A stretch of DNA of 64,000 bases from Saccharopolyspora rosea. Its GTDB lineage: Bacteria > Actinomycetota > Actinomycetes > Mycobacteriales > Pseudonocardiaceae. Made by a program: the position numbers and the translations under genes. Shown here in pieces: positions 4,691 through 41,978 of the stretch. Every line of letters starts with the position of its first letter. Position 1 is the stretch's first letter. The stretch covers positions 5,766,001-5,830,000 of the forward strand of contig NZ_CP102826.1 of assembly GCF_025643595.1 (NCBI RefSeq), written 5' to 3'. Below the pieces are notes generated by a model. That model saw nothing but the letters and a program-made list of their open reading frames with translations. It searched no databases and had not been told where the DNA came from.

Positions 4691-5502
4691 CCGCTGCCGA
4701 CCAGGACCGGCGGCTGCGGCTGTCGGCGCTCGAATTCGACGTGCTCACCGAACACCTGGGCCTGGAGCGGATGCCGCTGGTGCTCAAGGTCCCGTCACCG
4801 GGACGCACCCGCGCGGAACGCGCCGAACTGGTCGACGCGGTGTGGCGGTCCCTCGCGGACCGCGATCTGGGCGGTCCGACCCGGCTGGACCCGGAGCTGG
4901 AGGGGATGCTGCGGCTGCTGGTCCGACCGGACCGCGAGGTCGACGCCCGGCTCTGGCTGGACCGCAGCGTCCGCGTCCTGGCCGCGGCCGGTCCGGTCGA
5001 CGACGCCGTGCTGGTGGTCAAGGACGAGGACGAGCTCACCTTCCGCCCCGCGGCCGCGTCCGGCCTCGCCCGCGAGGCCGTGTCGGTGCTGCCCGCGCTG
5101 CCCGCCGGATCGGGCGGGTCGGTGTCGGTGCCCAGCGCGGACCTCGACGCGGCGGCCGAGGAAGCGGGCGACGACCTCGAACGGCTGCCGACGGCGCTGG
5201 TGCGCCGGGGCGTCCGCGCCGACGACGCCGAGACGCTGGCGCGCATGGTCAACGGCGTGGGCTCGCGCGGCCAGTTCGGCGTGGCGGCGCGGGACCGCTG
5301 GGGCCGCAGGACCCGCGCGGGCCACGTGGTCGGCTGCTTCGACACCCCGCACGGCCGCTACGCCCAGCTGCGCCGCGAGTCGCCGTCCGGCCAGCCGTGG
5401 AGCACGATCGCCCCGGCGGACGCCCGCCGCCTCACCGCCCACGTCGAGGAACTCCTCGCCGAGGTCACCGACGGCCTCCCGGGCCCGACCCCCTTCACCT
5501 AG
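4687..5502 (+). CDS. EspG-family ESX secretion chaperone
   Basis: A 271-residue cytoplasmic protein of the EspG family, which binds PPE proteins and delivers them to ESX machines. Visible marks are the opening LRLSALEFDVLTEHLGL, the central LVVKDEDELTFRP, and the late part with ARDRWGRRTRAGHVVGCFDT and GRYAQLRRES, all in family order and at family length. It overlaps the PPE-like gene by four bases (ATGA), so translation is probably coupled. The stop codon TAG at 5500-5502 lies at the left edge of an intergenic repeat element. The dedicated partner is almost certainly the upstream PE/PPE-like pair. Confidence 0.85.
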   Translation: MTAADQDRRLRLSALEFDVLTEHLGLERMPLVLKVPSPGRTRAERAELVDAVWRSLADRDLGGPTRLDPELEGMLRLLVRPDREVDARLWLDRSVRVLAAAGPVDDAVLVVKDEDELTFRPAAASGLAREAVSVLPALPAGSGGSVSVPSADLDAAAEEAGDDLERLPTALVRRGVRADDAETLARMVNGVGSRGQFGVAARDRWGRRTRAGHVVGCFDTPHGRYAQLRRESPSGQPWSTIAPADARRLTAHVEELLAEVTDGLPGPTPFT

Positions 5503-5817
5503 CGCGTGTTTTACAAGCGGCGTCAGCCGCTTCCTCTTTCGGTGAGCGGTCTCGCAGCCCGCACCGCCGCGGGTTCTTCGGTGGTCACAGTGGCGCGTCA
5601 GCGCCTCCTTGGGGGTGGTGGTCGGGAGACGGGCGGGCGTCTCGCGAGGACAGCCCCGACGCTGTGTATTGGGCATACATGAGTCGGGGCTCCCGGAGCC
5701 GGTGTGGCTGTGGCGCGCAGCGCCTCCGTGGGGGGCGGTGGTCGGGTGACGGGCGGGCCGCTGAGGTTCCGCTCCCGGCACCGCCACGCAAAGCATTTCC
5801 GGGACACTCCCCAGCCC
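5500..5817 (+). repeat. Dispersed intergenic element, copy 1 (R1), with nested insertion
   Basis: The first of four related elements in the window (others at 24476, 38745 and 41842). It starts on the stop codon of espG. The core has an 18-bp palindrome at 5515-5532 (AAGCGGC, GTCA, GCCGCTT), then TCTTTCGGTGAGCGGTCTCG and CAGCCCGCACCGCC, and after the nested insertion CGCCACGCA. The right end is more diverged than in copies 2 to 4. There is no open frame with coding character; short frames crossing it are not supported. Confidence 0.75.
5569..5785 (+). repeat. Nested insertion inside R1, flanked by GCACCGCC direct repeats
   Basis: The 8-mer GCACCGCC occurs at 5561-5568 and again at 5778-5785. 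The 209 bp between them are absent from copies 3 and 4, where GCACCGCC occurs once. Inside lie a hairpin (AGCCCCGAC at 5652-5660 and GTCGGGGCT at 5683-5691) whose loop holds GTGTATTGGGCATACAT, and two imperfect direct repeats of about 48 bp at 5591-5638 and 5711-5758. This looks like a small non-autonomous insertion with an 8-bp target duplication, or recombination between the 8-mers in the shorter copies. Confidence 0.6.
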
Positions 5818-5820
5818 ACC

Positions 5821-5860
5821 CCGCGGTGCCGCGCGCAAGCACGCGCGACACCGCGGTTTT
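5821..5860 (+). terminator. Strong hairpin between convergent espG and glpD
   Basis: CCGCGGTGCCGCGCG at 5821-5835 pairs with CGCGCGACACCGCGG at 5842-5856 with one G-T wobble, and TTTT follows at 5857-5860. It has the form of a factor-independent terminator for plus-strand transcripts and can also fold at the end of glpD mRNA. Confidence 0.75.
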
Positions 5861-5866
5861 CGCCGG

Positions 5867-7612
5867 TCAGCTGATCGGTTCGGTGAGCTTCTCGCGGGCC
5901 TCCGGGGCGGCGGAGCGCTTGGCGTCGGCCGCCTGGTCGTCGGGCTGCAACTGCGAGTCGCGTTCGGCGTCGACGCGCTGGGTGTAGACCTCGATCTCGC
6001 GGGCCACCCGGGCGTCGTCCCAGCCGAGCACCTCGGCCATCAGCCGGGCCACCGGTTCCGCGCAGTCGATGCCGCGGTGCGCGTACTCGATGGAGATGCG
6101 GGTGCGACGGGTGAGGACGTCCTCCAGGTGGAGCGCGCCCTCGTGGCTGCACGCGTAGGCGACCTCGGCCTGCAGGTAGTTGGGCGCGGCCGGGATCGGC
6201 TTGAGCAGTTCCGGCCGCTCGTCGCCGAGGGCGAGCACGTCGTGGATCTCCGAGCCGTACCGGTCGAGCAGGTGCCGGATGCGGTACGGGTGCAGACCGT
6301 GCTCGGCGGCGAGCTGGTCGGCCTGGTTGACCAGCGCGTGGTAGCCGTCCGCGCCGAGCAGCGGCACCCGGTCGGTGATGGACGGCGCCATCCGGCCGGC
6401 CACGTCGCCGGAGATCGCGTCCACCGCGTCGGCGGCCATCACGCGGTACGTCGTGTACTTGCCGCCCGCGATGGCGACCAGGCCCGGGGCGACCCGGGCG
6501 ACCGCGTGCTCGCGGGACAGCTTGGAGGTCTCCTCGCTCTCCCCCGCCAGCAGCGGGCGCAGACCCGCGTAGACGCCCTCGATGTCGTCGTGCTTGAGCG
6601 GGGTGGCCAGCACGGTGTTGACGTGTTCGAGGATGTAGTCGATGTCGGCCTTGGTCGCGGCCGGGTGCGCCAGGTCGAGGTTCCAGTCGGTGTCGGTGGT
6701 CCCGACGATCCAGTGGTTGCCCCACGGGATGACGAACAGCACCGACTTCTCGGTGCGCAGGATCATCCCGCTCTCGGCGACGATGCGGTCCCGCGGGACG
6801 ACGATGTGCACGCCCTTGCTGGCGCGCACCCGGAAGCGGCCGCGGCCGCCGGAGAGCCGCTGCAGCTCGTCGGTCCACACGCCGGTCGCGTTGATCACGG
6901 CCTGGGCGCGGACCTCGGTCTCCTCACCGGTCTCGACGTCGCGCACCCGCACGCCGGCGATCCGGTCGGCCTCCCGCAGGAACCCGGTGACCTGGCTGGA
7001 GTTCATCACGACCGCGCCGTAGCGGGCGGCGGTGCGGGCCACGGTCATGGTGTGCCGGGCGTCGTCGGCCTGGGCGTCGTAGTAGCGGATGCCGCCGATC
7101 AGCGCGTTTCGCTTGAGCGCCGGGACCATCCGCAGCGCGCCCGCGCGCGAGAGGTGCTTCTGCCCGGGGACCGAGCGGGCCCCGCCCATCGTGTCGTAGA
7201 GGAACAGACCGGCTGCGGTGTACGGGCGTTCCCAGAACCGGTGGGTCAGCGGGTACAGGAAGCTGACCGGCTTCACCAGGTGCGGTGCGAGGCGGGTCAG
7301 CATCAGTTCGCGTTCCCGCAGTGCCTCGCGCACCAACGAGAACTCCAGCTGTTCGAGGTAGCGCAGGCCGCCGTGGAACAGCTTGCTCGACCGGCTGGAC
7401 GTGCCGGAGGCCAGGTCCCGGGCTTCCACCAGGGCGACCCGCAGGCCACGGGTGGCGGCGTCGAGCGCGGTGCCCGCGCCGGTGACCCCACCGCCGATGA
7501 CCACGACGTCGAACTCCTCGGAACCGAGGCGCCGCCAGTTGTCCGCCCGTTCCGCGGGCCCCAGCCTGCCCGTCGTGCGGGCCACTTCGCTTTCGGTCTT
7601 CTGCCTGGACAC
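5867..7612 (-). CDS. glpD: Aerobic glycerol-3-phosphate dehydrogenase
   Basis: A 581-residue FAD enzyme that oxidises sn-glycerol-3-phosphate to dihydroxyacetone phosphate at the membrane, passing electrons to quinone. The N-terminal FAD motif is DVVVIGGGVTGAGTALDAA (about residues 34-52), followed by RDLASGTSSRSSKLFHGGLR, the family signature. Later come GVWTDEL, VPWGNHWIVGTTDTDW-type substrate-pocket sequence and the helical C-terminal domain (YACSHEGALHLEDVLTRRTR). The length is normal. The GTG start has GAGGAGG eight bases upstream. It lies 79 bp after glpR on the same strand and is divergent from glpFK, so the four genes make one glycerol regulon. A hairpin follows its stop. Confidence 0.95.
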   Translation of the reverse strand: MSRQKTESEVARTTGRLGPAERADNWRRLGSEEFDVVVIGGGVTGAGTALDAATRGLRVALVEARDLASGTSSRSSKLFHGGLRYLEQLEFSLVREALRERELMLTRLAPHLVKPVSFLYPLTHRFWERPYTAAGLFLYDTMGGARSVPGQKHLSRAGALRMVPALKRNALIGGIRYYDAQADDARHTMTVARTAARYGAVVMNSSQVTGFLREADRIAGVRVRDVETGEETEVRAQAVINATGVWTDELQRLSGGRGRFRVRASKGVHIVVPRDRIVAESGMILRTEKSVLFVIPWGNHWIVGTTDTDWNLDLAHPAATKADIDYILEHVNTVLATPLKHDDIEGVYAGLRPLLAGESEETSKLSREHAVARVAPGLVAIAGGKYTTYRVMAADAVDAISGDVAGRMAPSITDRVPLLGADGYHALVNQADQLAAEHGLHPYRIRHLLDRYGSEIHDVLALGDERPELLKPIPAAPNYLQAEVAYACSHEGALHLEDVLTRRTRISIEYAHRGIDCAEPVARLMAEVLGWDDARVAREIEVYTQRVDAERDSQLQPDDQAADAKRSAAPEAREKLTEPIS

Positions 7613-7691
7613 CAGGGGTCCTCCTCGCTCGAATCACATGCCACCGCACGACGCGGAACCGGACTCGGCGCCTATCGCCCCGCGGTGGTCA

Positions 7692-8528
7692 TCATGCCCG
7701 ACGGGCACCACCCGTGCCCGCCGCGTCACTGCCCTCAGCACCGGCCCGCTCCACGCGGGCGCCCCGTTCCCGGAGCACCTCGACGTCCGCGTCCGGGGTC
7801 CGGGAATCGACGATCACGACGTCAAAGTCCTCGGCCGGCGCCACCGCGTGCAGCGCGCGCCTGCGGAACTTCGTGTGGTCGACGTAGAGCACCCGGCGCC
7901 GCGCCGAGGCCAGCATGGCCTTCTTGATCTGCACCATCTCCTGCTGCGGGTAGAAGCAGATCCCGTCGGTGACCGCGGAGACCGACATGATCGCCAGGTC
8001 GACGCGCAGGTTGCGCAACGCGTCCAGCGCCATGCCGCCGACGAACGCGTCCGCCCACGGCAGGTAGTCGCCGCCGATGCTGATCAGGTGGATCCCCTGC
8101 GCCGCAGCGAGTTCGCCGAACACGCCGCGGTGGTTGGTGACCACCGTCAGCGGCGCCCGTTCCGGCAGCAGCCGGGCCAGGTAGACGCCCGTGGTGGAGT
8201 CGTCGAGCACCAGCGCCTGACCTGGTTCGACCAGATCGGCGGCGGCCCGGGCGACCTCCTCCTTCTCCGCCTGGTTCTGCTGCATCCGGTACTCCGAAGC
8301 CGCCTCGTACAGCAGCGACGAGGCCGCCGAGACGTAGCCGCGGTTGCGGTGCACCAGCCCTTGCGACTCCAGGTCGGCCAGGTCCCGGTACACGGTCATG
8401 GCGCTGGCGCCCACCGTCGCGACGAGGTCGTCGATGCGGAGGGTGCCCTCCTCCATGACCAGCTCGGTGATCCTGCGCCGTCGGTCCTGCTGCTTGCTCG
8501 ACGGGCGTCGACCGGAAGTCCCGGACAT
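7692..8528 (-). CDS. glpR: DeoR-family regulator, probable glycerol repressor
   Basis: A 278-residue DeoR/GlpR regulator. The N-terminal winged helix-turn-helix lies at about residues 18-70 (RRITELVMEEGTLRIDDLV, then SAMTVYRDLADLESQGLV). The C-terminal sugar-phosphate sensor domain has ALVLDDSTTGVYLARLL, VTNHRGVF, and the late VDHTKFRRRALHAVAP signature. The ligand is probably glycerol-3-phosphate or a related metabolite, judged only from the neighbours glpD, glpF and glpK. The ATG is preceded by AGGGGAAGG. A candidate operator with TCACA and TGTGA arms lies in the divergent intergenic region. The tail is Ala/Gly-rich and probably disordered. A paralogue lies at 19759-20547. Confidence 0.85.
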   Translation of the reverse strand: MSGTSGRRPSSKQQDRRRRITELVMEEGTLRIDDLVATVGASAMTVYRDLADLESQGLVHRNRGYVSAASSLLYEAASEYRMQQNQAEKEEVARAAADLVEPGQALVLDDSTTGVYLARLLPERAPLTVVTNHRGVFGELAAAQGIHLISIGGDYLPWADAFVGGMALDALRNLRVDLAIMSVSAVTDGICFYPQQEMVQIKKAMLASARRRVLYVDHTKFRRRALHAVAPAEDFDVVIVDSRTPDADVEVLRERGARVERAGAEGSDAAGTGGARRA

Positions 8529-8968
8529 TCGACCTTCCCCTCACACCATGTTCGTCCACCGGCAGGCTCCCATCCTCCCCATTGGCGGCGTGGTGTTCGG
8601 GGCGTGCCCGAGGCGCTCCGTCGTCACCGCGTAATCCGATAAAAACATCATAGAACCGGTCTTGCAATGTTGGTTTTCACAGGGTTAATGTGACCCAGCC
8701 TGCGGCGCGGGGCCCAGGCGTATGAGCTCCAACGGGGGAGGTCATGGCAGACGTCCGCATCGCCTGCGACCCCACCCGCGCCCGCTCTACGACCGTCCCC
8801 GATCTCGCAGGTCAACGCGCTAGGCGGGACGGACCAACCGGTTGCCCACGAGTGGCGGCACTCGTGGACACGTGTTGCCATGCGGCAGTACCGTCCCGAC
8901 TCGCTCCACGTCGGACAGACACTGGACCCGCCCGAGTCGACGGCGGTACCTAGAGGGGACCGGGCAGT
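8529..8968. promoter_or_regulatory. Divergent glpR / glpF control region
   Basis: These 440 bp separate glpR from glpF. The stretch 8635-8695 is AT-rich for this genome and includes an inverted repeat TCACA (8677-8681), GGGTTAA, TGTGA (8689-8693), a plausible GlpR site. GAGGGGAC at 8953-8960 is the ribosome site of glpF. An open frame at 8744-8953 (69 codons) has a GGGGGAGG two bases before its ATG, but its second half loses GC3 bias and it resembles no family, so I do not call it a gene. Confidence 0.55.
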
Positions 8969-9715
8969 ATGAGCCTTGGCGAGATCTTCCTGTGGGAATT
9001 AATGGGAACGGCGGCGCTCACCTTGCTGGGCTGCGGGGTCGTGGCGAACGTGGCCCTGCGCAACACCCTCGGCCACAACGGGGGTTGGCTGCTGGTCAAC
9101 TTCGGCTGGGGCTTCGCGGTCTTCGTGGGCGCCAGCATCGCCGCTCCCACCAAGGCGCACCTCAACCCCGCCGTGACGCTGGGACTCGCGATGGACGGCC
9201 AGGTGCCGTGGTCGCAGGTGCCGACCTACATCGCCGCGCAGCTGGTCGGCGGCGCGCTGGGCGCCGGTCTGTGCTGGGCCACCTACAAGCTGCAGTTCGA
9301 CACCCACGACGATCCCGCGAACACGCTGGGCGTCTTCGCCACCGCTCCCACCGTGCGCAACGCGCCGTGGAACCTGGTCACCGAGATCATCGGCACCTTC
9401 GTGCTGGTGCTGTGGATCATCCTCAGCCCGCAGGCGCGCCCCGGCGAACACGTCGGTGTCCCCGAGTTCGGCAACTCGGCGCTCGGCTACGCGGCCGTCG
9501 CGTTCGTGGTGATCAGCATCGGCAGCTCGCTCGGCGGTCCGACCGGATACGCCATCAACCCGGCCCGCGACCTCGGTCCGCGCGTCGCCTACGCGCTGCT
9601 GCCGATCCGCGGCAAGGGCTCGGCCGACTGGGGATACGCGTGGATCCCGATCGTCGGCCCGGTCATCGGCGGCGTGCTGGCCGGTGCTCTGGCGCAGATC
9701 CTGCCGGTCACCTGA
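8969..9715 (+). CDS. glpF: MIP-family glycerol facilitator
   Basis: A 248-residue channel protein with six predicted membrane helices and the two pore half-helices: HLNPAVTLG in the first half and INPARDLGPR in the second. The Arg after the second NPA and the Asp-Leu that follows (NPARDLGPR) are the marks of glycerol-conducting aquaglyceroporins rather than strict water channels. It would let glycerol diffuse across the cytoplasmic membrane. The start ATG sits eight bases after GAGGGGAC. glpK follows 31 bp downstream, so the two form an operon: uptake, then trapping by phosphorylation. Confidence 0.94.
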   Translation: MSLGEIFLWELMGTAALTLLGCGVVANVALRNTLGHNGGWLLVNFGWGFAVFVGASIAAPTKAHLNPAVTLGLAMDGQVPWSQVPTYIAAQLVGGALGAGLCWATYKLQFDTHDDPANTLGVFATAPTVRNAPWNLVTEIIGTFVLVLWIILSPQARPGEHVGVPEFGNSALGYAAVAFVVISIGSSLGGPTGYAINPARDLGPRVAYALLPIRGKGSADWGYAWIPIVGPVIGGVLAGALAQILPVT

Positions 9716-9746
9716 TCCGAACGTCCACACAGGAAGGTAGAGCGAA

Positions 9747-11249
9747 ATGGCCTCCTACGTCGCCGCAATCGACCAGGGAACGACGTCGACCCGGTGCATG
9801 ATCTTCGACCACTCCGGTCAGGTCGTGGCGGTCGACCAGATGGAGCACCGGCAGATCTTCCCTCGGGCGGGCTGGGTCGAGCACGAACCGGCGGAGATCT
9901 GGAGCAACACCCGGCAGGTGTGCGCCGGAGCGCTGGCCAAGGCGGACCTGGTCGCCTCGGAGATCGCCGCGTGCGGGATCACCAACCAGCGCGAAACCAC
10001 CGTGGTGTGGGAGAAGGACACCGGCAAACCGGTCTACAACGCGATCGTCTGGCAGGACACCCGCACCGACGAGATCGTCAACCGGCTCGCCGCCGAGGGC
10101 GGGCAGAACCTCTTCCACCAGCAGACCGGGCTGACGCTGTCGCCGTACTTCTCCGCGACGAAGCTGCGCTGGATACTGGACAATGTGGACGGTGTCCGGG
10201 AGCGCGCCGAGAAGGGCGAGCTGCTGTTCGGCAACATGGACACCTGGGTGCTGTGGAACAGCACCGGCGGCCCGGACGGCGGCCTGCACGTCACCGACCC
10301 GACCAACGCCTCCCGCACGTTGCTGATGGATCTGCGCTCGTTGCAGTGGGATCCGGACATCTGCCGGGAAATCGGCATCCCGATGGCGATGCTGCCGGAG
10401 ATCCGGTCGTCCTCGGAGGTCTACGGCCGGTTCCGGGAACGCGGGGTGTTCGGCGGAATTCCGATCGCGGGCATCCTCGGCGACCAGCAGGCGGCCACCT
10501 TCGGCCAGGCGTGCCTGTCGCCCGGCGAGGCCAAGAACACCTACGGCACCGGCAACTTCCTGCTGCTCAACACCGGAACCGAGCCGGTGCTGAGCAACAA
10601 CGGCCTGCTCACCACGGTCGGCTACAAGATCGGCACGAACGAGACGGTCTACTGCCTGGAGGGGTCGATCGCGGTCACCGGTTCGCTCGTGCAGTGGCTG
10701 CGCGACAACCTCGGCCTGATCGCGACGGCCCCGGAGATCGAGCAGGTGGCGCGTTCCGTCGACGACAACGGCGGCGCCTACTTCGTCCCCGCGTTCTCCG
10801 GACTGTTCGCCCCGCACTGGCGCTCCGACGCGCGCGGCGCGATCGTCGGCCTGACCCGCTACGTCAACCGCGGGCACCTGGCGCGCGCGGTGCTGGAGGC
10901 CACCGCATTCCAGACCCGCGAGATCGTCGAGGCGATGAACGCCGACTCCGGCGTGCCGCTGAAGTCCCTCAAGGTCGACGGCGGCATGGTCGGCAACGAA
11001 CTGCTGATGCAGTTCCAGGCCGACATCCTCGGCGTGCCGGTGATCCGCCCGGTGGTCGCCGAGACCACCGCTCTCGGCGCCGCCTACGCCGCCGGTCTCG
11101 CGGTCGGCTTCTGGGAAGGCGAAGCCGACATCCGCACCAACTGGGCCAAGGACAAGCAGTGGGACCCGGCCATGCCCGCCGACCTCCGCGAACGGCAGTA
11201 CCAGCAGTGGCAGAAGGCGGTGACCAAGACCTTCGGGTGGGTGGAATGA
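9747..11249 (+). CDS. glpK: Glycerol kinase
   Basis: A 500-residue FGGY kinase that phosphorylates glycerol with ATP to sn-glycerol-3-phosphate. The N-terminal phosphate loop is [18 protein letters not shown]. The glycerol contacts appear as [11 protein letters not shown] (Arg-Glu) and WQDTRTD. The second signature [13 protein letters not shown] and [15 protein letters not shown] lie in the C-terminal half. The conserved GTGNFLL and [10 protein letters not shown] stretches are also present. Length is that of the family. AGGAAGG at 9731-9737 is the ribosome site. The product feeds GlpD. A hairpin follows the gene at 11315-11345. Confidence 0.97.
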
Positions 11250-23002: not shown

Positions 23003-24478
23003 GTGATCACGATCGGCATCGACGCCGGGACGTCCGTGGTGAAGAGCGTCGCCTACGCCTCGGACGGCACCGAACTGGCCGTGGTGCGCCGCCCCACCAA
23101 GGTCGAGCACCCGCGCCCCGGATGGGCCGAGCAGGACATGGACGAGGTCTGGCAGGCCGTGGCGGGCACGATCAACGAGCTCGTCGCCGAAGTCGGCTCC
23201 GACGTCGGAGCCTTGTCCGTCACGGCGCAGGGCGACGGCTGCTGGTTGGTGGACTCCGACGGGCGGCCGACCGGACCCGCCATGCTGTGGAACGACGCCC
23301 GGTCCGCCCCGATCGCGGCGCGCTGGGCCGAGTCCGGCCTGCTCGACGAGCTGTTCCGGATCAACGGATCGGTGGGCTTCGCCGGCCTCCCGCACGCCCA
23401 GCTGACCTGGCTGGCCGAGCACGCCCCCGCCCGAGTCGAAGCCGCCTCGGCGGTGCTGTCCTGCGGCGGCTGGCTCTACCGGTGCCTGACCGGCCGCACC
23501 GCGTGGGACGTCTCGGAGGCGTCCAATCCCTTCCTCGACGCGCGCACCGGCGAGTACTCCGAACAGGTCCTCGACGACCTCGGGCTGGGCTGGGCGCGCA
23601 GGCTGCTCCCGGAGGTCGTCGACGGTGCGGGACGCGTGGCACCGCTGCGGGAGTGCGCCGCGCGGCTGCTGGGGCTCGAACCCGGGACGCCGGTGGTGCT
23701 CGCCGCGTACGACGTGGTGTCCACCGCGATCGGCGCCGGTGTCACCGACCCCGGGCAGGCGTGCACCATCCTCGGCACGACCATCTGCACCGAGGTGATC
23801 AGCGACGACCCGCGGCTGGAACGCGCGCCGGTCGGGATGTCGCTGCGCACCCCCGCTCGCGGGCGGTGGATGCTGGCCAGCGCGACGCTCGCGGGCACCG
23901 AGGTCGTCGAGTGGGCGTGCCGGATGCTCGGGCTGCCCAATCCGGAGAACCTCACCGAACTCGCCGAACACGCCGACCCCGGCAGCAAGGGCCTGCTGAT
24001 GCTGCCCTACCTGTCCCCGGGCGGTGAGCGGGCGCCGTTCTACGACCCGACCGCGCGCGGCAGCCTGCACGGGCTGAGCCTCGAACACGGGCCGGCCGAG
24101 ATCGCGCGCGCCTGCCTGGAAGGGCTGGCCATGGTCATCCGCGACTGCCTGCGCGCCAGCGCGGCGGATCCCACCGAACTGCGGCTCACCGGCGGCGGCG
24201 CGGCGAACCCGCTGTGGCGCCGGGTGATCGCGGACGTCACCGGACTGCCGGTGGTGCGCACCACCGACGCCCAGGCCGGAGCGCGCGGCGCGGCGGTCAC
24301 CGCGCACGCCGTCCTCGAAGGGCGCGGCATCGCCGAAGTCGCCGCCGACCTGGTCGGCACCTCCGAGCCCGTCCGGCCGACCGAGGCGAACCGGGCGACC
24401 TACGAGGACGCGTACGCCCGGTTCGTCGAAGCGAGGACGTCGGCCCAGGCCGCGCACTGGTTCCGCCCCGCGCACTGA
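23003..24478 (+). CDS. FGGY-family carbohydrate kinase (erythritol/xylulose-kinase-like)
   Basis: A 491-residue FGGY kinase. ITIGIDAGTSVVKSVAYASD is the phosphate loop, followed by GWAEQDMDEVWQAV, SVTAQGDGCWLVDSDG and WNDARS, which place it near the erythritol kinase/L-xylulokinase branch. The C-terminal ATPase domain has CTILGTTICTEV, YLSPGGERAPFYDP and LTGGGAANPLWRRVIADV. It would phosphorylate a polyol or ketose after uptake; no transporter or dehydrogenase lies beside it to fix the substrate. The GTG start follows AGGAAGGA. Its stop codon TGA lies in the left terminus of intergenic element copy 2. Confidence 0.87.
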   Translation: MITIGIDAGTSVVKSVAYASDGTELAVVRRPTKVEHPRPGWAEQDMDEVWQAVAGTINELVAEVGSDVGALSVTAQGDGCWLVDSDGRPTGPAMLWNDARSAPIAARWAESGLLDELFRINGSVGFAGLPHAQLTWLAEHAPARVEAASAVLSCGGWLYRCLTGRTAWDVSEASNPFLDARTGEYSEQVLDDLGLGWARRLLPEVVDGAGRVAPLRECAARLLGLEPGTPVVLAAYDVVSTAIGAGVTDPGQACTILGTTICTEVISDDPRLERAPVGMSLRTPARGRWMLASATLAGTEVVEWACRMLGLPNPENLTELAEHADPGSKGLLMLPYLSPGGERAPFYDPTARGSLHGLSLEHGPAEIARACLEGLAMVIRDCLRASAADPTELRLTGGGAANPLWRRVIADVTGLPVVRTTDAQAGARGAAVTAHAVLEGRGIAEVAADLVGTSEPVRPTEANRATYEDAYARFVEARTSAQAAHWFRPAH

Positions 24479-24716
24479 GTGCCCTTCTTTGAACCGGTCC
24501 GTAAGGACGACGGCAAGGAGAGCTAGCCGCCCTTCTCTCTTTCGGTGAGTGATCTTGCAACCCGCACCGCCGCGGGTTCTCAGCGGTCGTCTCGCGAGGA
24601 CAGCCCCGACGCCGTGTATTGGGCATACATCAGGAGGGGCTTCCGCAGTCGAGACGGCCGCTGAGGTTCCGCTCCCGGCACCGCCACGCACAACGAGTTC
24701 GAAGACAGGCTCTGAG
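24476..24716 (+). repeat. Dispersed intergenic element, copy 2 (R2), with nested insertion
   Basis: Terminal inverted repeats are CTGAGTGCCCTTCTTTGAAC at the left and TTCGAAGACAGGCTCTGAG at 24698-24716, whose complement begins CTCAGAGCCTGTCTTCGAA. Between them are TCTCTTTCGGTGAG, CAACCCGCACCGCC and, after the nested insertion, ACGCACAACGAG. The TGA stop of the kinase is part of the left repeat. The element separates the kinase from the 3' end of a shortened AbiEi-like gene read from the other strand. Confidence 0.8.
24572..24685 (+). repeat. Nested insertion inside R2, flanked by GCACCGCC direct repeats
   Basis: GCACCGCC stands at 24564-24571 and 24678-24685. The 106-bp insert has imperfect inverted ends GCGGGTTCTCAGCGG (24572-24586) and CCGCTGAGGTTCCGC (24658-24672) and shares the GTGTATTGGGCATACAT block with the larger insert in R1. 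It sits at exactly the same point of the host element as in R1. Confidence 0.65.
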
Positions 24717-34578: not shown

Positions 34579-36255
34579 GTGTCCACGGAGAGCAATGACA
34601 CCGTCGCCGGCGCCGGACGGTTGATCGCCGACCGGTACCGCCTGGAGAACAAGCTCGGCAGCGGCGCCATGGGCACCGTGTGGGCCGGGATGGACGAACT
34701 GCTCCGCCGGCCGGTCGCGGTCAAGGAGGTGCGGCTGCCCCCCGGCATGCCGGACGAGGAAGCCGCGGAGATCCGCGAACGCGCCCTGCGCGAAGCCCGC
34801 GCCATCGCGGTGCTCAGCCACCCCAACGTCGTCACGCTCTACGACGTGGCGCGCGAGGAGGGCGAGCCGTTCGTCGTCATGGAACTGGTGCCCTCGCAGG
34901 CCCTCGCGGCGATCCTGGCCGAGCACGGGGCGCTGGACGACCGGCAGCTCGCGGTCGTCGCCGACGGGGTCGCCGCCGCGCTGGACGCCGCGCACCAGGC
35001 CGGGATCGTGCACCGCGACGTCAAACCCGGCAACGTGCTCATCGCCGACGACGGGCGGATCAAGCTCAGCGACTTCGGGATCTCCCGCAACCGCGCCGAG
35101 CACACCATCACCAGCACCGGCATCCTGCTCGGCACGCCGTCGTTCATCGCGCCGGAGATCGCCGCGGGCGAACCGGTCACGGCCAAGGCGGATCTGTGGG
35201 GGCTGGGCGCGACGCTGTTCGCCGCCTCCGAGGGCCGACCGCCCTACGACGTCGGCGACGACCCGGTCGCGACGGTGACCGAAGTGGTCCACGGCCCCGT
35301 CCCGGTGTGCCGGCGGACCGGACCGATCGCCGACGTCATCGCGGGGCTGATGGTCAAGGACCCGGCGCAGCGGATGTCGCTGACCGAGGTGCGCCGCCGC
35401 ATCCAGCACATGCTGCCGGAACCGGGTAGCCGACCGTTCTCGATGCTGCTCGACCCCGAGGCGCCGACGCTGCGGGTGCGGCGGCCGGAACCGCAGAACC
35501 CGACCCGCCAGGACCAGCCGGAGCCGGCGGCCGCCCCGCTGGCCGCCGATCCCGGTGCGCCCCCGTTCGAACTGCGCGACCCCCCGCCCGCCCCGCCGCA
35601 GCGCCGTCGCCGGTCCCCGCTGGCCGTGGTGGCGCTGGCGCTCGGCGCGCTGCTGGTGTTCTCCGCCGCGCTCGCGGGCGGCTTCGCGGCGACCCGGGTG
35701 GCCGCGGGCCGGTCGCCGCTGCCCCCGGAGCGGACCGGAACGGCCTCGGCGGCACCGACGACGCGACTGGACACGCGCACGGACGCGGCCAACCACACCG
35801 GCGACTCGGGTTCCGGCCGGTTCTCCATCCCGGTCCCGGCGGGGTGGACGGTCTACCACAGCGAGCGATCGGACCTGACCAACAGCAAGACGGTGTCCTT
35901 CGTGTCGCCGGACGGGCACCGCGAGCTCGCGGTGGAACGCTTCGGCGGCTACTTCGGGGACGGCTACTCGGTGGCGGACTACGTGCGCGCGCTGCCGAAG
36001 CTGGCCGCCGGGTCCAAGGGCGCCTTCACGCTGCGGGGCCAGTCGCAGCAGGGGCAGGACCAGCAGGTGTCCTACTCGACCGTGGAGTCGGCGCTGGTCG
36101 GTTCCGGGGCGTCGCTGAGCCGGACGACGACCGCCCGGCTGGTGCGCCACGACAACGACCTGTGGGTGGTCCGGGTGACGGTTCCGACCCAGGACGCGGC
36201 GCGGAGCGCGAAACTGCTGAACACCGTGTTCCCGGGGTTCGCACCCGCGTCCTGA
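34579..36255 (+). CDS. Membrane-anchored Ser/Thr protein kinase
   Basis: A 558-residue Hanks-type kinase. The N-terminal kinase domain (about 18-280) is complete: glycine loop [11 protein letters not shown]49 in [16 protein letters not shown] with D147, DFGISR at 165-170, and SFIAPE. A Pro-rich linker follows, then one membrane helix (about 347-371, [20 protein letters not shown]), then an outside domain of about 185 residues ([18 protein letters not shown]) that is not made of PASTA repeats. It probably senses an envelope signal and phosphorylates cytoplasmic targets. GTG at 34564 or 34579 may be the start; no ribosome site is clear. It is divergent from the mrp operon, but a functional link is not shown. 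Confidence 0.9.
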
Positions 36256-36298
36256 GATCGCCGACATCGTCCGTCGGCACGGACTAAGCTGCGCGGCC

Positions 36299-37096
36299 GT
36301 GACGCCTACGACGACAGCAGACGCGACGGCCGCCGCGACGAGGATCGCCGAAACCACCGGGGTTGACCGGCACGACCTGGCCGTGGTGCTGGGTTCCGGT
36401 TGGCAGCCCGCCGCCGAGGAGATCGGCGCGCCGGTCACCGAGGTGCACATGGCCGAACTGCCCGGGTTCGTGCCGCCGGGCGCGATCGGGCACAGCGGGC
36501 GGATCTGGTCGGTCGAGGTCGGCGCCAAGCGCGTCCTGGTGCTGCTCGGCCGCACCCACCTCTACGAGGGCAAGGGCATCGACCCGGTGGCCCACGGGGT
36601 GCGGACGGCCGTCGCGGCGGGGTGCGGCGCGGTGGTGCTCACCAACGCGGCGGGCGGACTGCGCGAGGGCATGGCCGTCGGCCAGCCGGTGCTGATCAGC
36701 GACCACCTCAACCTGACCGCGCGGTCGCCGCTGGTGGGCGCGGACTTCGTGGACCTCACCGACCTGTACTCGCCGCGACTGCGCGAACTGGCGCGCGGCG
36801 TCGACCCGTCGCTGGCGGAGGGCGTGTACGCGGGTCTGCCCGGCCCGCACTTCGAGACGCCCGCGGAGATCCGCATGCTGCGCACCCTCGGCGCCGATCT
36901 GGTGGGCATGTCCACGGTGCTGGAGGCGATCGCGGCGCGGGCCGCGGGCGCGGAGGTCCTCGGCGTGTCGCTGGTGACGAACCTGGCGGCCGGGCTGACC
37001 GGCGAACCGCTGAGCCACGAGGAGGTCCTGGAGGCCGGTCGCGCGTCGGCGAGCCGGATGGGCAAGCTGCTGCGGTCCCTCGCGGAGGCGGCATGA
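36299..37096 (+). CDS. Purine nucleoside phosphorylase (trimeric type)
   Basis: A 265-residue enzyme that splits (deoxy)inosine and (deoxy)guanosine with phosphate into base and (deoxy)ribose-1-phosphate. Phosphate and substrate motifs: [56 protein letters not shown] and [13 protein letters not shown], ending with [11 protein letters not shown] that holds the base-contacting Asn. TAAGCT at 36286-36291 lies seven bases before the GTG start, as in leaderless genes. Its stop overlaps the ATG of the sugar phosphomutase, which suggests the mutase handles the ribose-1-phosphate produced here. Confidence 0.93.
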
Positions 37097-38748
37097 GCGA
37101 CGATTCCGCGCCGGTCGGCGGGACGAGCCACGTCGAGGCGGCGCTGCGCTGGATCGACGCGGACGTCGACCCGCGCGCCCGCGCGGAGCTGCGGGAGCTG
37201 GTGGACACCTCGGCGGACGAGCTGGCCGACCGGATGTCCGGGATGCCGCGCTTCGGCACCGCGGGGCTGCGGGCCCCGGTGCGGGCGGGGGCGAACGGCA
37301 TGAACCGGGCGGTGGTGATCCGCACGACCGCCGGGGTCGCGACCTGGCTGCGGGAGCGCGGTTTCGGCGGCGGGACGGTGGTCGTCGGCCGCGACGCCCG
37401 GCACGGTTCCGAGGACTTCGCCCACGACACCGCCGGAGTGCTGGCGGCCGCCGGGTTCGACGTCCGGCTGCTGCCCGCTGCGCTCCCGACCCCGGTGCTC
37501 GCGCACGCCACGCGCGCGCTGGACGCGGTGGCGGGCATCCAGATCACCGCCTCGCACAACCCGCCGCGGGACAACGGGTACAAGCTGTACCTGCGCGGCG
37601 GAATCCACCTGGTGTCGCCGACCGATTCCGAGATCGAGGAGGCGATCGCCCGGGCTCCCGGCGCGAACGAGGTCCCCCGCGCCGCGGACTGGACGGTCCT
37701 GGAGTCCGCTGTGGACGAATACCTGGACCGCGTGGCGTCGTTGCCGCGCGGCCGGTCCCGCACGCTGCGGATCGCCGCCACGGCGCTGCACGGCGTGGGC
37801 GCCGAGCCGCTGGTGGAGGCGCTGCGGCGGGCCGGGTTCACCGACGTCCACCTGGTGGCGTCCCAGGCCCGACCGGATCCGGACTTCCCGACGGTGGGGT
37901 TCCCCAACCCCGAGGAGCCGGGAGCCACGGACGCGCTCCTGGAGCTGGCCGAGGCGGTCGACGCCGACCTGGCCGTGGCGCTGGACCCGGACGCCGACCG
38001 CTGCGCGCTGGGCGCTCGCGACGGCGGGCGGTGGCGGATGCTCAGCGGCGACGAGACGGGCGTCCTGCTCGCCCGGCACATTTTGTCCACTTTGGACAGA
38101 GAAGCGGTGCCCGATCCGCTGGTCGCCACCACGGTCGTCTCCTCGACGATGCTGCGCTCGCTGGCCGCCGACCACGGCGTCCGCTACGACGAGACGCCGA
38201 CCGGGTTCAAGTGGCTGGTCCGCGCCGGGGACGGCGCCGGGACCGGCCTGGTGTACGCCTACGAGGAAGCCCTCGGGCACTGCGTCGACCCGGACCGGGT
38301 GCGCGACAAGGACGGCATCGCCACGGCCGTCCTGGCCGCGGACCTCGCCGCCACCGCGAAGTCGCGGGGACGCGCCCTCCCGGACCTGGTGGACGAGCTG
38401 TCCACCGCCTACGGCGTCCACCAGACCGGCCAGGTCTCGGTCCGCGTCACGGACCTCGACGTCATCGACCGGACGATGCGCCGCCTGCGCGCGCACCCGC
38501 CGACCCGGCTCGCCGGCAGCGAGGTCGCGGTCGACGACCTGCTGCCGACCACGGACGCCCTGGTCGTCCGGGGCGCGGGCGGCCTGCGGGTGGTGATCCG
38601 CCCGTCGGGCACCGAACCGAAGCTGAAGTGCTACCTCCAGGTGGTCGAGCCGGTCGGCGACGCCGGGCTGGCCGCGACCAAGGGCCGGGCGGCGGACCGC
38701 CTGTCGGCGCTGCGCGACGCGGTGTCCGAACTCGTGGGAGAAGCCTGA
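37093..38748 (+). CDS. Alpha-D-phosphohexomutase family enzyme (phospho-sugar mutase)
   Basis: A 551-residue four-domain mutase. The phosphoserine loop is [17 protein letters not shown], the Mg2+ loop [12 protein letters not shown], the sugar-specificity loop [14 protein letters not shown], and the phosphate-binding loop [13 protein letters not shown]. This is the long bacterial PGM2/PMM form, some of which act on ribose-1-phosphate and deoxyribose-1-phosphate. Its four-base overlap with the purine phosphorylase gene favours a pentose-phosphate role, though glucose or mannose phosphates remain possible. The stop codon TGA is inside the left end of intergenic element copy 3. Confidence 0.9.
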
Positions 38749-38869
38749 GCGGCTGTCTTTGATCTTGGTTGCGGCGGTCGTGGTAAGCGGCGTGAGCCGC
38801 TTTCTCTTTCGGTGAGCGGTCTCGCAGCCCGCACCGCCACGCACAACGAGTTCGAAGACAGGCTCTGAG
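38745..38869 (+). repeat. Dispersed intergenic element, copy 3 (R3), without nested insertion
   Basis: Ends: CCTGAGCGGCTGTCTTTGAT at the left and TTCGAAGACAGGCTCTGAG at the right, inverted to one another with small mismatches. The core holds the 18-bp palindrome at 38785-38802 (AAGCGGC, GTGA, GCCGCTT), TCTTTCGGTGAGCGGTCTCG, one GCACCGCC (38831-38838) and ACGCACAACGAG. This is the simplest copy and shows the element without the insertion. The mutase stop codon lies in the left terminus. Confidence 0.82.
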
Positions 38870-38918
38870 CCCGCCTCGCCCCTTGCCCCGGACGCACCAC
38901 GGCCTGCACGCTCGCAAC

Positions 38919-39371
38919 GTGCCCCGGTTGCTGATCGTCCACCACACGCCGTCGCCGAACCTGCAAGCCATGTTCGAAGCGGTCATCGCCGGCGCGACGA
39001 CCGACGAGATCGAAGACGTCGAGGTCGTCCGCCGCGCCGCCTTGGAAGCCACCCCGTCCGACGCGCTCGCGGCCGATGGCTACGTCCTCGGCACGCCGGC
39101 CAACCTGGGCATGATGAGCGGTGCTCTCAAGGTCTTCTTCGACCTCGCTTACTACCCCTGCCTGGATTCCACCCGTGGTCGCCCGTACGGCCTCTACGTG
39201 CACGGGAACAACGACACGACCGGAGCCGTTCGCGGAATCGAGTCGATCACCACCGGCCTCGGGTGGGAGAAGGTCACGCACACCGTCTCGGTGACCGGGG
39301 AACCGTCCAAGGAAGACCTCGAATCCTGCTGGGAACTCGGCGCCACGGTGGCGGCGAGCCTGATGCCGTAG
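38919..39371 (+). CDS. Flavodoxin-like / NAD(P)H-dependent FMN reductase
   Basis: A 150-residue flavodoxin-fold protein. RLLIVHHTPSPNLQAMFEAV is the FMN phosphate loop with the strand-loop-helix of flavodoxins; ADGYVLGTPANLGMMSGALK binds the isoalloxazine ring (the GTPxNxGxxSG pattern); RPYGLYVHGNNDT and LGWEKVTHTV follow. It would transfer electrons or reduce small substrates with FMN in the cytoplasm. The start is set at GTG 38919, where the conserved fold begins. The frame is open upstream to 38883 within poor context. It lies 50 bp after the repeat element and has no obvious operon partner. Confidence 0.82.
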   Translation: MPRLLIVHHTPSPNLQAMFEAVIAGATTDEIEDVEVVRRAALEATPSDALAADGYVLGTPANLGMMSGALKVFFDLAYYPCLDSTRGRPYGLYVHGNNDTTGAVRGIESITTGLGWEKVTHTVSVTGEPSKEDLESCWELGATVAASLMP

Positions 39372-39953
39372 CGGTTCCACCGGAATCAGTGCGACTCCTT
39401 GTCGGTCCAGCCCGGTGGCGCTGTTCACCGGGCTTTCCCCTGGCCGCAACGTCCTTGTGCGGTGGGCGGAATCCGCTGCCCGGTCGCCACCACGGCAGGC
39501 GCGGCAACGGGTTTCGCGCCGCCCGCGGGAACCCCCGCTCGCCGCTCGGGCCCGGCCTTCAGCCGGGCGGTCACGCGCTCTCGGCGGGGCACCGGTCCGG
39601 TGCTCGCCCCGGGCTCCGGTGATCGTTCCGCGCGGCCTGGGCGCGGTGCGACCTCCACGCCCACCCGAACGGGTTCTTGCGTGGAGCGATCACCTCTGAA
39701 ACGTTCCAGGGGATCGGGAAACCCTCCCCAGTTGATCTTGGTATTGCGGGCGGAGGTAACCTGATCGAGTCGCCGGGACGCAGTCCTCGGTGACGAGTGG
39801 GCGCCCTGGACAAAGCCCGCCTTCCCTCATCAACGTGCGATGTTCAGGGCGCTCCCGCCACTGTCGGCGCCAGCGGTGCCATCCGCTCGGTGAACGAGGT
39901 CACCGCGGCCCCTGAGGCAGCATCGGGCCGGGCCGAGGGGTTACCCTGCGACA
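39372..39953. other. Intergenic stretch of 582 bp without a supported gene
   Basis: Short open frames on both strands give Arg/Pro-rich peptides of no family. Structure seen: a 7-bp hairpin GCCCGGC-CTTCA-GCCGGGC at 39550-39568 and a longer one with arms GCGCCCTGGACA (39801-39812) and TGTTCAGGGCGC (39841-39852), one mismatch. AT-richer sequence at 39725-39760 (TTGATCTTGGTATTGCGG) may be a promoter. TACCCT at 39942-39947 serves the next gene. Confidence 0.45.
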
Positions 39954-40289
39954 GTGAGTGAGGAAACGATCCGACTCGAACTCGACGACTCCGGCCTCTC
40001 CGTGGATCTCCCGAAACCACCGAATCCGAATGACCAGGTCCAGGGCGTTCCGTATCGCCCGGTCGAGTTCCGCGACGACGACCTGCCGACCGCCCTGGAG
40101 CGGTCCGCCCAGTGGCTCCGCGAAGCCCAGAACTGGTTGGGTGAGCCGCTCGACGTCATCGCCGTGCACCTCGACTACGACGATCGCGAAGGCGCCCCTT
40201 ACTACGACCTGAAGTTGCTGTGCAACGAAGAGGACCTGGCCGGAGCGCCGATCGCCCTGCGCAAGCTGCAGAGCGGCACCGCAGGCTGA
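39954..40289 (+). CDS. Conserved-looking acidic protein of unknown function
   Basis: A 111-residue soluble acidic protein. The order is ETIRLELDDSGLSVDLPKPP, a central helix LPTALERSAQWLREAQNWLG, and two strands (LDVIAVHLDYDDREGAPYYD, LKLLCNEEDLAG). Codon bias is strong and a TACCCT -10 box lies seven bases before the GTG, so the gene is very likely real and leaderless. No family is recognised. No membrane segment or enzyme motif is present. It stands alone; the Doc-like toxin gene lies convergent to it, about 100 bp further. Confidence 0.65.
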   Translation: MSEETIRLELDDSGLSVDLPKPPNPNDQVQGVPYRPVEFRDDDLPTALERSAQWLREAQNWLGEPLDVIAVHLDYDDREGAPYYDLKLLCNEEDLAGAPIALRKLQSGTAG

Positions 40290-40392
40290 CCCGAGAAGTC
40301 CACCCACGCCGGGCCGGGTTCGCGCATCGCGGACCCGGCCTCGTGGTGCCGCCGGCCGGGAGCGGCGATCCCGGCGTGAGTCCACTGAGGAC

Positions 40393-40773
40393 TCAGGATT
40401 TCGGTTCGGCCCACTGCTCCAGGCGGTCCGCGATCTCCGGCAGCTCCCGCCGGTCGCGGCCGACCTCGCGGACGAGGATGAGCGCGGCCTCGTCGTCGGC
40501 CTCCACCCACCAGCCGTTCATGTCGCACATCGCGACCGCCGCGACCCAGCCGAGGCGCCAGTTGCCCTCGTGCAGCGGCCGGGTGCGCACGATCGAGTCG
40601 AGCAGCGCCGCCGCCTTGAGCCACAGCGTCTCGTAGGCGGGAACCCCGAGGACCTCCGCGCGGGGCCGGTACGCCGCCGCGTCCAGCAGTCCGCTGTCGC
40701 GGACCAGCAGATCACCGTCGGTGATCGCGGTGGCGAGCAGGAGCAGGTCGGAGCTGTCGAGGTAAACGATCAC
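40393..40773 (-). CDS. Doc/Fic-like toxin of a toxin-antitoxin pair
   Basis: A 126-residue helical protein. The Fic/Doc core is seen as RPLHEGNWRLGWVAAVAMCD (about 66-85), matching the H-x-x-N-x-R pattern of Doc-like toxins, although the usual Phe and the acidic residue of HxFxDxNKR are not in place. The start IVYLDSSDLLLLATAI and VPAYETLWLKAAALLDSIVR fit the helices that precede the core. Doc proteins block translation by modifying EF-Tu. It follows the ribbon-helix-helix gene by 14 bp on the same strand, the normal antitoxin-then-toxin order. GTG start. Confidence 0.7.
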   Translation of the reverse strand: MIVYLDSSDLLLLATAITDGDLLVRDSGLLDAAAYRPRAEVLGVPAYETLWLKAAALLDSIVRTRPLHEGNWRLGWVAAVAMCDMNGWWVEADDEAALILVREVGRDRRELPEIADRLEQWAEPKS

Positions 40774-40787
40774 CGCTCAATGGTCGA

Positions 40788-40994
40788 TCATGCCGGTCCG
40801 AGCCTGTCCAGCAAGCCCCGGTAGCGCGGCACGACCCGGTCCACGACCTCGCCGATCTGCTGTTCCCGCCGGCGACGGGCCCAACGCTCGGCCAGCGCGC
40901 TGCGCACCACCTCCTGCTTGGAACGCCCCTCGGCCTCGGCCAGCTCGGCGAGCCGCCGGTTGTCTTCCTCGCTCAGGCGCAGCGTCATAGCCAT
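40788..40994 (-). CDS. Ribbon-helix-helix antitoxin
   Basis: A 68-residue DNA-binding antitoxin. MAMTLRLSEEDNRRLAELAE gives the beta strand and first helix; EGRSKQEVVRSALAERWARR the second helix of the ribbon-helix-helix fold. The rest (IGEVVDRVVPRYRGLLDRL) would wrap and neutralise the toxin. It is expected to bind its own promoter, which lies in the short space before the broken tetR gene on the opposite strand. ATG at 40994, with a second ATG two codons in. Confidence 0.8.
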   Translation of the reverse strand: MAMTLRLSEEDNRRLAELAEAEGRSKQEVVRSALAERWARRRREQQIGEVVDRVVPRYRGLLDRLGPA

Positions 40995-41047
40995 GTGCGG
41001 GATGGTATCGCGGTGGTACCACTCCGCCCAGGCGATACGTTCGGTGA

Positions 41048-41640
41048 ATGGCCCGACCACGAGTGCACGACGAGGCCCTGCGCGTCCGGCTGCTCGACCG
41101 CGCGGCGAGCTGCTCTCGGCGCACGGCCCCGAGGCGTTGAGCCTGCGCCGCCTCGCCGCCGACGCGGGCACCTCGACCACCGCCGTGTACTCGCTGTTCG
41201 GCGGCAAACCCGCCCTGGTCCGCGAGCTGTACGTGGAGGGGTTCCAGCGGCTCGGCGACCGGTTGGAACAGGTGCCGCGCACCGAGGACCCGCTGGCCGA
41301 CCTGGAAGCGCTCGGCCACGCCTACCGGGACAGCGCGCTGGCGAACCCGCACTTCTACTCGATCATGTTCGGCCGCGCGGTCCCCGACTTCGCTCCCGAC
41401 GAGGCCGCGCTGGAGCTGTCCAAGCAGTGCATGCGGCCGCTGCGGGAGGCCGTCTGCCGGGCCATCGAGGCGGGCCTGCTGGTCGAGGTCGATCCCGAGG
41501 AGATCGTGTTCGCCGCCTGGGGACTCGTGCACGGTCTGGTGTCGTTGGAGCTCAACGGGTCGACGCCGGGGGCGGGCGAACGCCGCGCCGCCCGCTACAG
41601 CCGGGCGCTGGAGCACAGCATGGCGGGCTGGAGGCGCTGA
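41048..41640 (+). pseudogene. TetR-family regulator broken by a one-base frameshift
   Basis: ATG at 41048 opens MARPRVHDEALRVRLLDRAA, a normal TetR start, but after about residue 19 the frame is lost: the next residues of the fold, ELLSAHGPEALSLRRLAADA and GTSTTAVYSLFGGKPALVRE, continue in the +1 frame from 41107. One base is missing in GCGGCGAG near 41105. Downstream the protein is complete to the stop at 41640 (about 197 residues in all), with a ligand-binding domain resembling the TetR_C_33-type. A start at 41002 in the second frame gives an unlike N-terminus. Either a real inactivating deletion or a sequencing error is possible. Confidence 0.75.
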
Positions 41641-41841
41641 CCCCGAGCGACGGGGGCCTGACTCGGGGCCAGCGCGGTCGTGGGCACCGGCACGTGCCCA
41701 CGATTCCTCCCGGCGACCGGCGAGTGCGGGCTCGCCGTCGGGGCGTCGCCGTCCCGCGGGCTCGAAGTGGTATAGACCATCTTGCGCCGGGTTCCGGCCC
41801 GGATCGAGCGGCCCAACGGCCGCACCGGATGCGACGGTCGG

Positions 41842-41978
41842 GTCAGAGCCTGTCTCCGAACTCTTTGCGGGGAGCGCTGCCGGTGGCGGTGCGAGCGGCG
41901 AGACGGCTCACCGACGGGGAAAGCGGCCGACGCCGCTTGCACGTCCCTCCCGGGAGCAGGTTCACGACAAGCACTCAG
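41842..41978 (-). repeat. Dispersed intergenic element, copy 4 (R4), without nested insertion
   Basis: This copy lies in reverse. On the minus strand it starts CTGAGTGCTTGTCGTGAACC on the stop codon of upp, then has AAGCGGCGTCGGCCGCTT, TCGGTGAGCCGTCTCGCCG, one GCACCGCC and ends with GAGTTCGGAGACAGGCTCTG. It fills most of the convergent space between the broken tetR gene and upp. The rest of 41641-41841 shows no gene. Confidence 0.78.

Follow-up and report, generated by a model that had tools for sequence, protein, structure and literature searches.

What is the small repeat that lies between genes at several places in a 64,000-nucleotide stretch of the Saccharopolyspora rosea chromosome (contig NZ_CP102826.1), and why does it sit on stop codons? 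The stretch, referred to here as the window, comprises bases 5,766,001-5,830,000 of a 6.56-Mb single-contig genome. The named relatives that scored best against its upp protein came from Kutzneria, Actinopolyspora and Amycolatopsis (84-87%), in a search from which near genomes may be missing; this would place the host in or near the Pseudonocardiaceae. A preliminary description of it had noticed four dispersed copies of an element with terminal repeats, each overlapping the stop codon of a neighbouring gene. When read directly, all four copies were present, each with one end flush on an in-frame stop codon, as described, namely that of espG (PF14011), an FGGY kinase gene, a PGM/PMM mutase gene and upp for copies 1-4, respectively. 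The observation was real, accurate only in part, and concerned something larger than had been claimed: the copies probably belong to a family of mobile elements, non-autonomous and centred on a conserved folded core consisting of a leading hairpin and a stem of ~125 nt, which has been repackaged in different ends and retained at gene ends.

The element is numerous in its own genome. A 21-bp core pattern allowing up to 3 mismatches had 155 matches in the 6.56 Mb and none when reversed, which places the copies beyond chance. Our data from this genome comprised 96 element-centred stretches, four 20-kb controls and the window (1,142,983 bases in total), with genes predicted by a codon-usage caller that was trained on this genome and applied also to other genomes. 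These data held 170 element territories, including some small fragments, at a density that differs from the genome-wide one because the stretches were selected around copies; the four controls, at hand-picked positions, held 2 element fragments, both in one control. Seventy-six territories had two recognizable ends, some of them enclosing nested copies or an insertion sequence (IS), and their ends were of two types: 58 territories were A/A, 16 were B/B and 2 were A/B. Inverted repeats similar to GAGCCTGTCTTTGAACTTG form the A-type ends; they are flanked by TNA, mostly as CTNAG, and gave 175-207 matches at 3-4 mismatches in 1.143 Mb versus 0-4 for reversed controls. Identical 3-bp flanks were found in 33 of the 58 A territories (TGA 18, TCA 14, TTA 1). 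B-type ends surround the same core and lie on CTAG, which was present on both sides in 7 of the 16 B territories. The 68 paired A ends fell into size classes of ~119, 143, 232, 283 and 337 bp, plus a few others. In the longer forms the core lies between two GCACCGCC direct repeats, of which the short forms keep one; from this arrangement, the short forms seem to have lost the core between the two repeats.

A resident 963-bp IS has ends of the A type and encodes an IS5-family transposase (NF033580, PF13340, PF01609), presumably of the IS1031-type subgroup with a TNA target. Its 10 copies are 99-100% identical, with an uninterrupted protein match in nine and a match split in two in one. The IS (GTGCCTGTCTTTGATCTTG) and the element (GAGCCTGTCTTTGAACTTG) have their terminal inverted repeats in common, and all 10 IS copies are flanked by TGA/TGA or TCA/TCA, the kind of duplication also seen at the A territories. 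Nine IS copies sit in an internal site of the element, GGCCGCTGA-GGTTCC, while the tenth lies in CGCTGA-GGTAGG. Among 216 A-type ends, counted at up to 3 mismatches and together with those of the IS, 47 adjoin the same internal site, so copies also nest in copies. Two element::IS composites (L139:4504-5887 and L174:4504-5750) were observed to have a common outer left flank, aaaaaccaagctca, which suggests that element and IS may have moved or been duplicated there as one unit.

Taken as sequence evidence, these features indicate that in its own genome the element behaves as a miniature inverted-repeat transposable element (MITE), with the IS5-type IS as its putative mobiliser. The earlier proposal of a small non-autonomous mobile element held on four grounds: the terminal repeats, the TNA and CTAG duplications, the presence of an intact IS whose ends match, and the finding of an exact empty site at upp. 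The upp copy was absent in 21 of 21 congeners when the 260 bases 3′ of the stop codon were read by eye, and two of them (G003 and G012) carry the uninterrupted site GTC-TGA-CCC. Together with the near-identity of the IS copies and an identity of up to 96% between element pairs, this absence leaves the view that the copies are too diverged for recent spread without support. Exchange among copies was also evident: in 35 unique own-genome cores, 438 of 561 variable-site pairs showed all four combinations, a mosaicism pointing to recombination or conversion between copies, to which repeated mutation may contribute. Neither a plasmid nor a phage collection gave a match with one 233-bp element as query, although near records may be missing from them, and carriage by such replicons was set aside.

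We then asked what the stop codons mean. A gene stop codon lay flush at an end in 45 of the 76 two-ended territories. With gap types pooled, perfect A-type duplications fell on stops in 22 of 33 cases versus 88 of 243 harmless CTNAG sites (Fisher p 0.001), and B-type ends in 11 of 16 versus 22 of 115 harmless CTAG sites (p 1e-4). The territories were also concentrated in convergent gaps (38 of 76, versus 183 of 1015 gene pairs; p 2e-9). Once A-type insertions were split by gap type, stops were struck in 19/28 versus 24/42 convergent, 13/26 versus 59/139 tandem and 0/4 versus 0/41 divergent cases; over all 58, 32 were observed and ~27 expected from the gap-type background. The excess within gap types was small, and a special stop-codon target for the A type, which had been part of the original interpretation, was rejected. 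Stops are struck for two reasons: TGA, TAA or TAG is part of CTNAG and CTAG, and the copies that survive are mostly those in 3′ gaps. On the plain reading, the target itself holds the stop codon, the duplication leaves the gene intact and insertions elsewhere get lost. Tolerance only at gene 3′ ends, the other half of that interpretation, stood for the most part, given the convergent gaps, but 4 of the 76 territories lie in divergent ones; as a whole the interpretation was partly supported.

The core has a much wider distribution than its ends. The 21-bp pattern at up to 1 mismatch matched only 1 of 22 genus genomes, but confinement to one species was refuted by blastn with one 233-bp element, which found matches in 21 of the 22, own genome included, among the best ~36 candidates taken for most genomes. 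The congener matches listed were 81-90% identical and mostly spanned query positions 75-233, with a few beginning at ~36-40; the left end was not common to them, and several different ends occurred on the same core. Within the genus, G027 (4.0 Mb) was the sole genome without a detectable core, and G025, G029 and G009 had only a few cores among the matches listed. At L301 and L241 of congener G003, cores lie between AAACTGCG...-like flanks, apparently a third kind of end that is neither A nor B. A covariance model of the core matched 79 of 297 genomes of the family Pseudonocardiaceae, in 15 of 46 genera, and a class-wide search matched 2 of 394 genomes, both of the same family; these searches scored at most 11 (family) or 8 (class) candidates per genome under stricter filters, so that the number of copies found in each genome is a minimum and weak copies may have escaped. 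The other-genus cores that we used were drawn from best-scoring or low-copy genomes, 49 in number and equal to 39 sites once merged by flank similarity; by a coarse window count, with ends read by eye, 4 of the 49 had CTAG on both sides. At one further locus in another genus (L346), three tandem copies of hairpin 1 plus linker (CACAAGCGGCGAAGCCGCTTACGGTGAGG-like) were seen upstream of the core at 1501.

Compensatory change supported the folded structure. In an unfitted alignment of 58 sequences, RNAalifold proposed 39 pairs, 17 of them with compensatory double changes. The model gave 114 matches, 14 of which repeated, on the opposite strand, copies that were in the list; the best 98 rows (96 distinct) were kept and 16 dropped. 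In these 98 matches 95.6% of cells were paired, double changes occurred in 27 of 39 pairs (shuffles 15.8, maximum 21), and 420 double-change cells compared with 121 +/- 13 after shuffling and 48-74 after sliding. All 114 rows, opposite-strand duplicates included, gave 95.0% paired cells and 491 double-change cells versus 132 +/- 15; both counts use the model-fitted alignment and lean towards the model. Compensatory changes beyond shuffles and slides are what a structured nucleic acid should display. As for a known RNA family, Rfam had no match to the window at the gathering threshold, and a single element searched at E up to 5 gave a best E of 0.29, under the cut-off of the family concerned and at chance level, so that candidate was dropped.

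The reading that competes most seriously is a plain MITE, in which the core has no cellular role, its pairing arises through arm-to-arm template switching and gene 3′ ends are merely harmless places to land. The terminal repeats, the TNA and CTAG duplications and the matching IS are all expected of it, as are the enrichment in convergent gaps and the recombination among copies (438 of 561 site pairs). It does not account well for a core conserved over 15 genera while the ends vary. Orthologous copies were also informative: the gatB 3′ end carries the core in five species of one other genus (g41), with GatB identified by Pfam in the two tested and the flanks shared. Ten pairwise comparisons of these sites showed 0-8 compensatory double changes and 0-2 one-sided changes each, with 2-7 differences in 49 unpaired positions; double changes were absent from 2 of the 10, and each comparison had 2-6 pairs that were unpaired in one sequence. 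Pairing is thus held at sites that are single-copy in three of the five genomes, each of which had one core match among the matches listed, and the lack of a second detected copy makes gene conversion between copies unlikely there. Arm-to-arm template switching could still have operated at these sites. We regard a plain MITE as possible, and as clearly the less probable account.

Position and orientation provided a further argument. For the 43 congener and 49 other-genus cores placed between genes, and for own-genome copies, we recorded the distance from the right edge of the core to a facing gene 3′ end. Without merging shared sites, this distance was 17-34 nt in 29 of 43 other-genus cases (26 of them within 17-24), 24 of 31 congener cases and 29 of 52 own-genome cases. 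In tandem gene pairs outside the own genome, with sites merged, the gene end was at the right of the core in 43 and at the left in 6, a split unexpected from symmetric transposition. The split was 20:3 in congeners and 23:3 in other genera, compared with 13:12 in the own genome (Fisher p 0.001); of the other merged outside sites, 20 were in convergent and 10 in divergent gaps, and 1 lay at the edge of a stretch. Older copies appear to have been kept, or inserted, in one orientation, and the IS5-driven expansion in the own genome may be too young or too symmetric for this to be visible. The four window copies had been reported to share one orientation relative to the flush gene; this is correct for these four and does not extend genome-wide: of the 32 A-type territories in the own-genome stretches that have two ends and a flush stop, 14 were in the same orientation, 13 in the opposite one and 1 in both, with 4 undetermined.

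Which strand carries the fold, and is it DNA or RNA? Taking the best hairpin of at least 6 bp within 75 nt upstream of the core as hairpin 1, we found triloops of the form GNA in 22/23 other-genus, 29/29 congener and 5/5 own-genome copies (56/57 in total), and tetraloops of the form GNNA in 3/5, 9/9 and 53/56 (65/70 in total), with counts that are not independent since the copies are related. Other loop lengths occurred in 5 other-genus, 2 congener and 1 own-genome copies, and no such hairpin was present in 3 of 43 congener and 4 of 66 own-genome copies. The commonest stems (AAGCGGC, ATGCGCC, AAACGCC and TCAGCGGC) provide a C:G closing pair, and d(cGNNAg) hairpins are stable. GNA loops are called extraordinarily stable DNA minihairpins in a title listed in PMC7432603, and extrusion at phage N4 promoters needs a C:G closing pair together with loop G and A, according to the portion of PMC4496689 consulted. 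On the core strand, G.U pairs were commoner than A.C: with two nearly invariant G.U pairs excluded, the three groups gave 37:3, 70:22 and 48:10, and a count of distinct states gave 45:21, the cell counts not being independent. The loop and pairing patterns favour a DNA hairpin on the core strand.

Two RNA readings were weighed against this preference, and we hold both to be unlikely. In the first, transposons have spread a structured non-coding RNA that is transcribed from the core strand and is antisense to the 3′ end of the neighbour. The covariation and the G.U excess would both fit it; the hairpin 1 loops are GNA and GNNA rather than the RNA-type GNRA (only 23 of the 65 GNNA tetraloops are GNRA), and Rfam contains no match. 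The second is a 3′-untranslated-region element in the mRNA of the adjoining gene, on the strand opposite the core, acting as a terminator or a barrier to RNase. It would explain the mostly fixed orientation and short stop-codon spacing outside the own genome, as well as the better folding of congener copies on the non-core strand. On that strand, however, the G.U pairs turn into A.C mismatches, the own genome has no orientation preference, and no U-tract of an intrinsic terminator was seen by eye (no tool was run). Least probable of all, and in our view improbable, is a REP-like element moved by a single-strand (Y1/HUH) transposase and later captured by IS5-type ends. In its strand-specific hairpins, its position at 3′ ends and its role as a landing site for IS the element resembles REPs, while the TNA and CTAG duplications argue for DDE transposition in the own genome. 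These readings overlap with each other and with our own, and our degrees of confidence in them do not sum to one.

We therefore return to the conserved core repackaged in different mobile ends. In the own genome the core is carried between transposon-type ends, either A (IS5-family-like, TNA) or B (CTAG), and insertion into CTGAG or CTAG at a gene end doubles the stop codon and leaves the gene intact. Copies persist mainly in 3′ gaps, and their GGCCGCTGA-GGTTCC site hosts other copies or the IS. In this proposal the core would fold on one strand only, most likely as a DNA hairpin extruded from the core strand, and would be retained as an orientation-dependent gene-end element, marking a boundary or a transcription end; the IS5-type burst in the own genome may have overridden its orientation. 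What distinguishes the element is this conserved, covarying core, which is often anchored at gene ends and outlives the ends it is packaged in; that it has a function we infer. More ambitiously, and only tentatively, it could be a gene-end element of the Pseudonocardiaceae, a strand-specific DNA (or RNA) fold at a fixed short distance from the stop codon and in one orientation, which sets gene boundaries at many loci and has repeatedly been repackaged and spread by the ends of different transposons.

Several observations weigh against the proposal. First, no more than 33 of the 58 A territories and 7 of the 16 B territories still have identical flanks. Second, relatives of the transposase (E 1e-20 or better) occur in only 6 of 21 congeners, with best matches of 46-59% identity per genome, whereas 20 of 21 have elements. 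Third, on limited evidence, an autonomous IS with B-type ends was not identified: 43 B right-end patterns (control 1) were listed, without examination of the intervals between pattern pairs, and 11 DUF4096 places consisted of the 10 known IS copies and an eleventh locus (L417) without CTAG. Fourth, compensatory change in a palindrome can arise by arm-to-arm template switching without selection. Fifth, 16 of 49 other-genus copies have no upstream hairpin of at least 6 bp in the 75-nt window. Sixth, predicted folding energies do not point consistently to the core strand, which folded better in 6/43 congener, 20/28 own and 25/48 other-genus copies with RNA parameters and in 5/43, 19/28 and 27/48 with DNA parameters; the groups disagree, and folding energy was discarded as a strand test. 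Lastly, readthrough RNA of the adjoining gene would carry the other strand.

The four window copies illustrate this variety (Table 1). The AAGCGGC...GCCGCTT palindrome, thought to be in every copy, is present in copies 1, 3 and 4 and missing from copy 2, and copies 3 and 4 are short forms with most of the conserved core gone. Nor is the right end shared throughout: copy 1 lacks TTCGAAGACAGGCTC-TGA and has a pair of its own, CTAG-CGCGTGTT...GGGACACTCC-CCAG. The TGA that the repeat's own CTGA was believed to supply is, in copies 2-4, a 3-bp target duplication found at both ends. Elsewhere in the window, positions 55728-55771 hold a near-perfect inverted repeat of 44 bp, possibly a solo-end palindrome, in which each arm is similar to the A-type terminal repeat with 4 mismatches; the TCA that follows at 55772-55774 is the stop codon of a minus-strand gene (55772-57121).

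Table 1. Copies of the element in the window and their parts (positions count from the first base of the window).
Feature	Position	Strand
Copy 1, long form, B-type ends (CGCGTGTTTTACAAG ... GGGACACTCC)	5503..5810	+
Left CTAG of copy 1; TAG at 5500-5502 is the espG stop codon	5499..5502	+
Right partner of the copy 1 left CTAG, decayed to CCAG	5811-5814	
Hairpin 1 of copy 1, AAGCGGC-GTCA-GCCGCTT, cGNNAg loop	5515..5532	+
Copy 2, standard form, A-type ends (GTGCCCTTCTTTGAAC ... GTTCGAAGACAGGCTC), without the usual hairpin 1 arms	24479..24712	+
Left TGA target duplication of copy 2, stop codon of the FGGY kinase gene (23003-24478)	24476..24478	+
Right TGA duplicate of copy 2	24713-24715	
Conserved structured core in copy 2, model R1 match, 143.6 bits	24562..24689	+
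Copy 3, short form, A-type ends; has a single GCACCGCC direct repeat, where long forms have two around the core	38749..38865	+
TGA target duplication of copy 3, stop codon of the PGM/PMM gene (37093-38748)	38746..38748	+
Right TGA duplicate of copy 3	38866-38868	
Hairpin 1 of copy 3, AAGCGGC-GTGA-GCCGCTT	38785..38802	+
Copy 4, short form, A-type ends	41846..41974	-
Hairpin 1 of copy 4, AAGCGGC-GTCG-GCCGCTT; loop not GNNA	41921..41938	-
TGA target duplication of copy 4, upp stop codon	41975..41977	-
Second TGA duplicate of copy 4	41843-41845	

Dispersed repeats of bacteria are usually short palindromes or transposon remnants, while the core described here is large, covaries over 15 genera and has interchangeable ends. 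A limited, word-based search of the open-licence literature found no account of the element, and the repeat, instead of being ordinary debris of transposons, may represent a gene-end element that has gone unrecorded. If the core works, such an element would operate at many loci of the Pseudonocardiaceae, a family known for antibiotic producers; if it has no function, it would offer a clear test case of palindromes that keep their pairing without one. In addition, the element illustrates how an IS5-type target (CTNAG, CTAG) turns stop codons into safe landing sites.

Among known systems, IS5-family MITEs are the closest: they too are short, lack a transposase, have terminal repeats similar to the ends of an IS5-family IS in the same genome and make 3-bp TNA duplications. 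MITEs normally have ends in common and not interiors, whereas the core of this element is conserved across genera and common to at least two end types. Repetitive extragenic palindromes (REPs) and bacterial interspersed mosaic elements (BIMEs) are likewise numerous, extragenic, palindromic and targeted by IS. In the parts of the literature seen, REPs are given as targets for several IS families including IS5 (PMC1525189), are linked to Y1 transposases (PMC2817692) and measure 20-40 bp (PMC3733652). Our element differs from them in its complex 125-nt stem plus hairpin, its DDE-type duplications, and its preferred gene-end spacing and orientation outside the own genome. The MIRU of mycobacteria, which insert at DTGA sites of translational coupling, are similar as small elements on a stop-codon TGA in an actinobacterium; our element differs from them in having terminal repeats and in having half of its two-ended territories in convergent gaps. 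For Saccharopolyspora erythraea, the portion of PMC3610266 seen describes antisense transcription enriched at gene 3′ ends, which we take as a lead only. The early promoter hairpins of phage N4 resemble the element in their cGNAg-type DNA hairpin loop, an analogy of loop chemistry alone that implies no such polymerase or promoter for the element.

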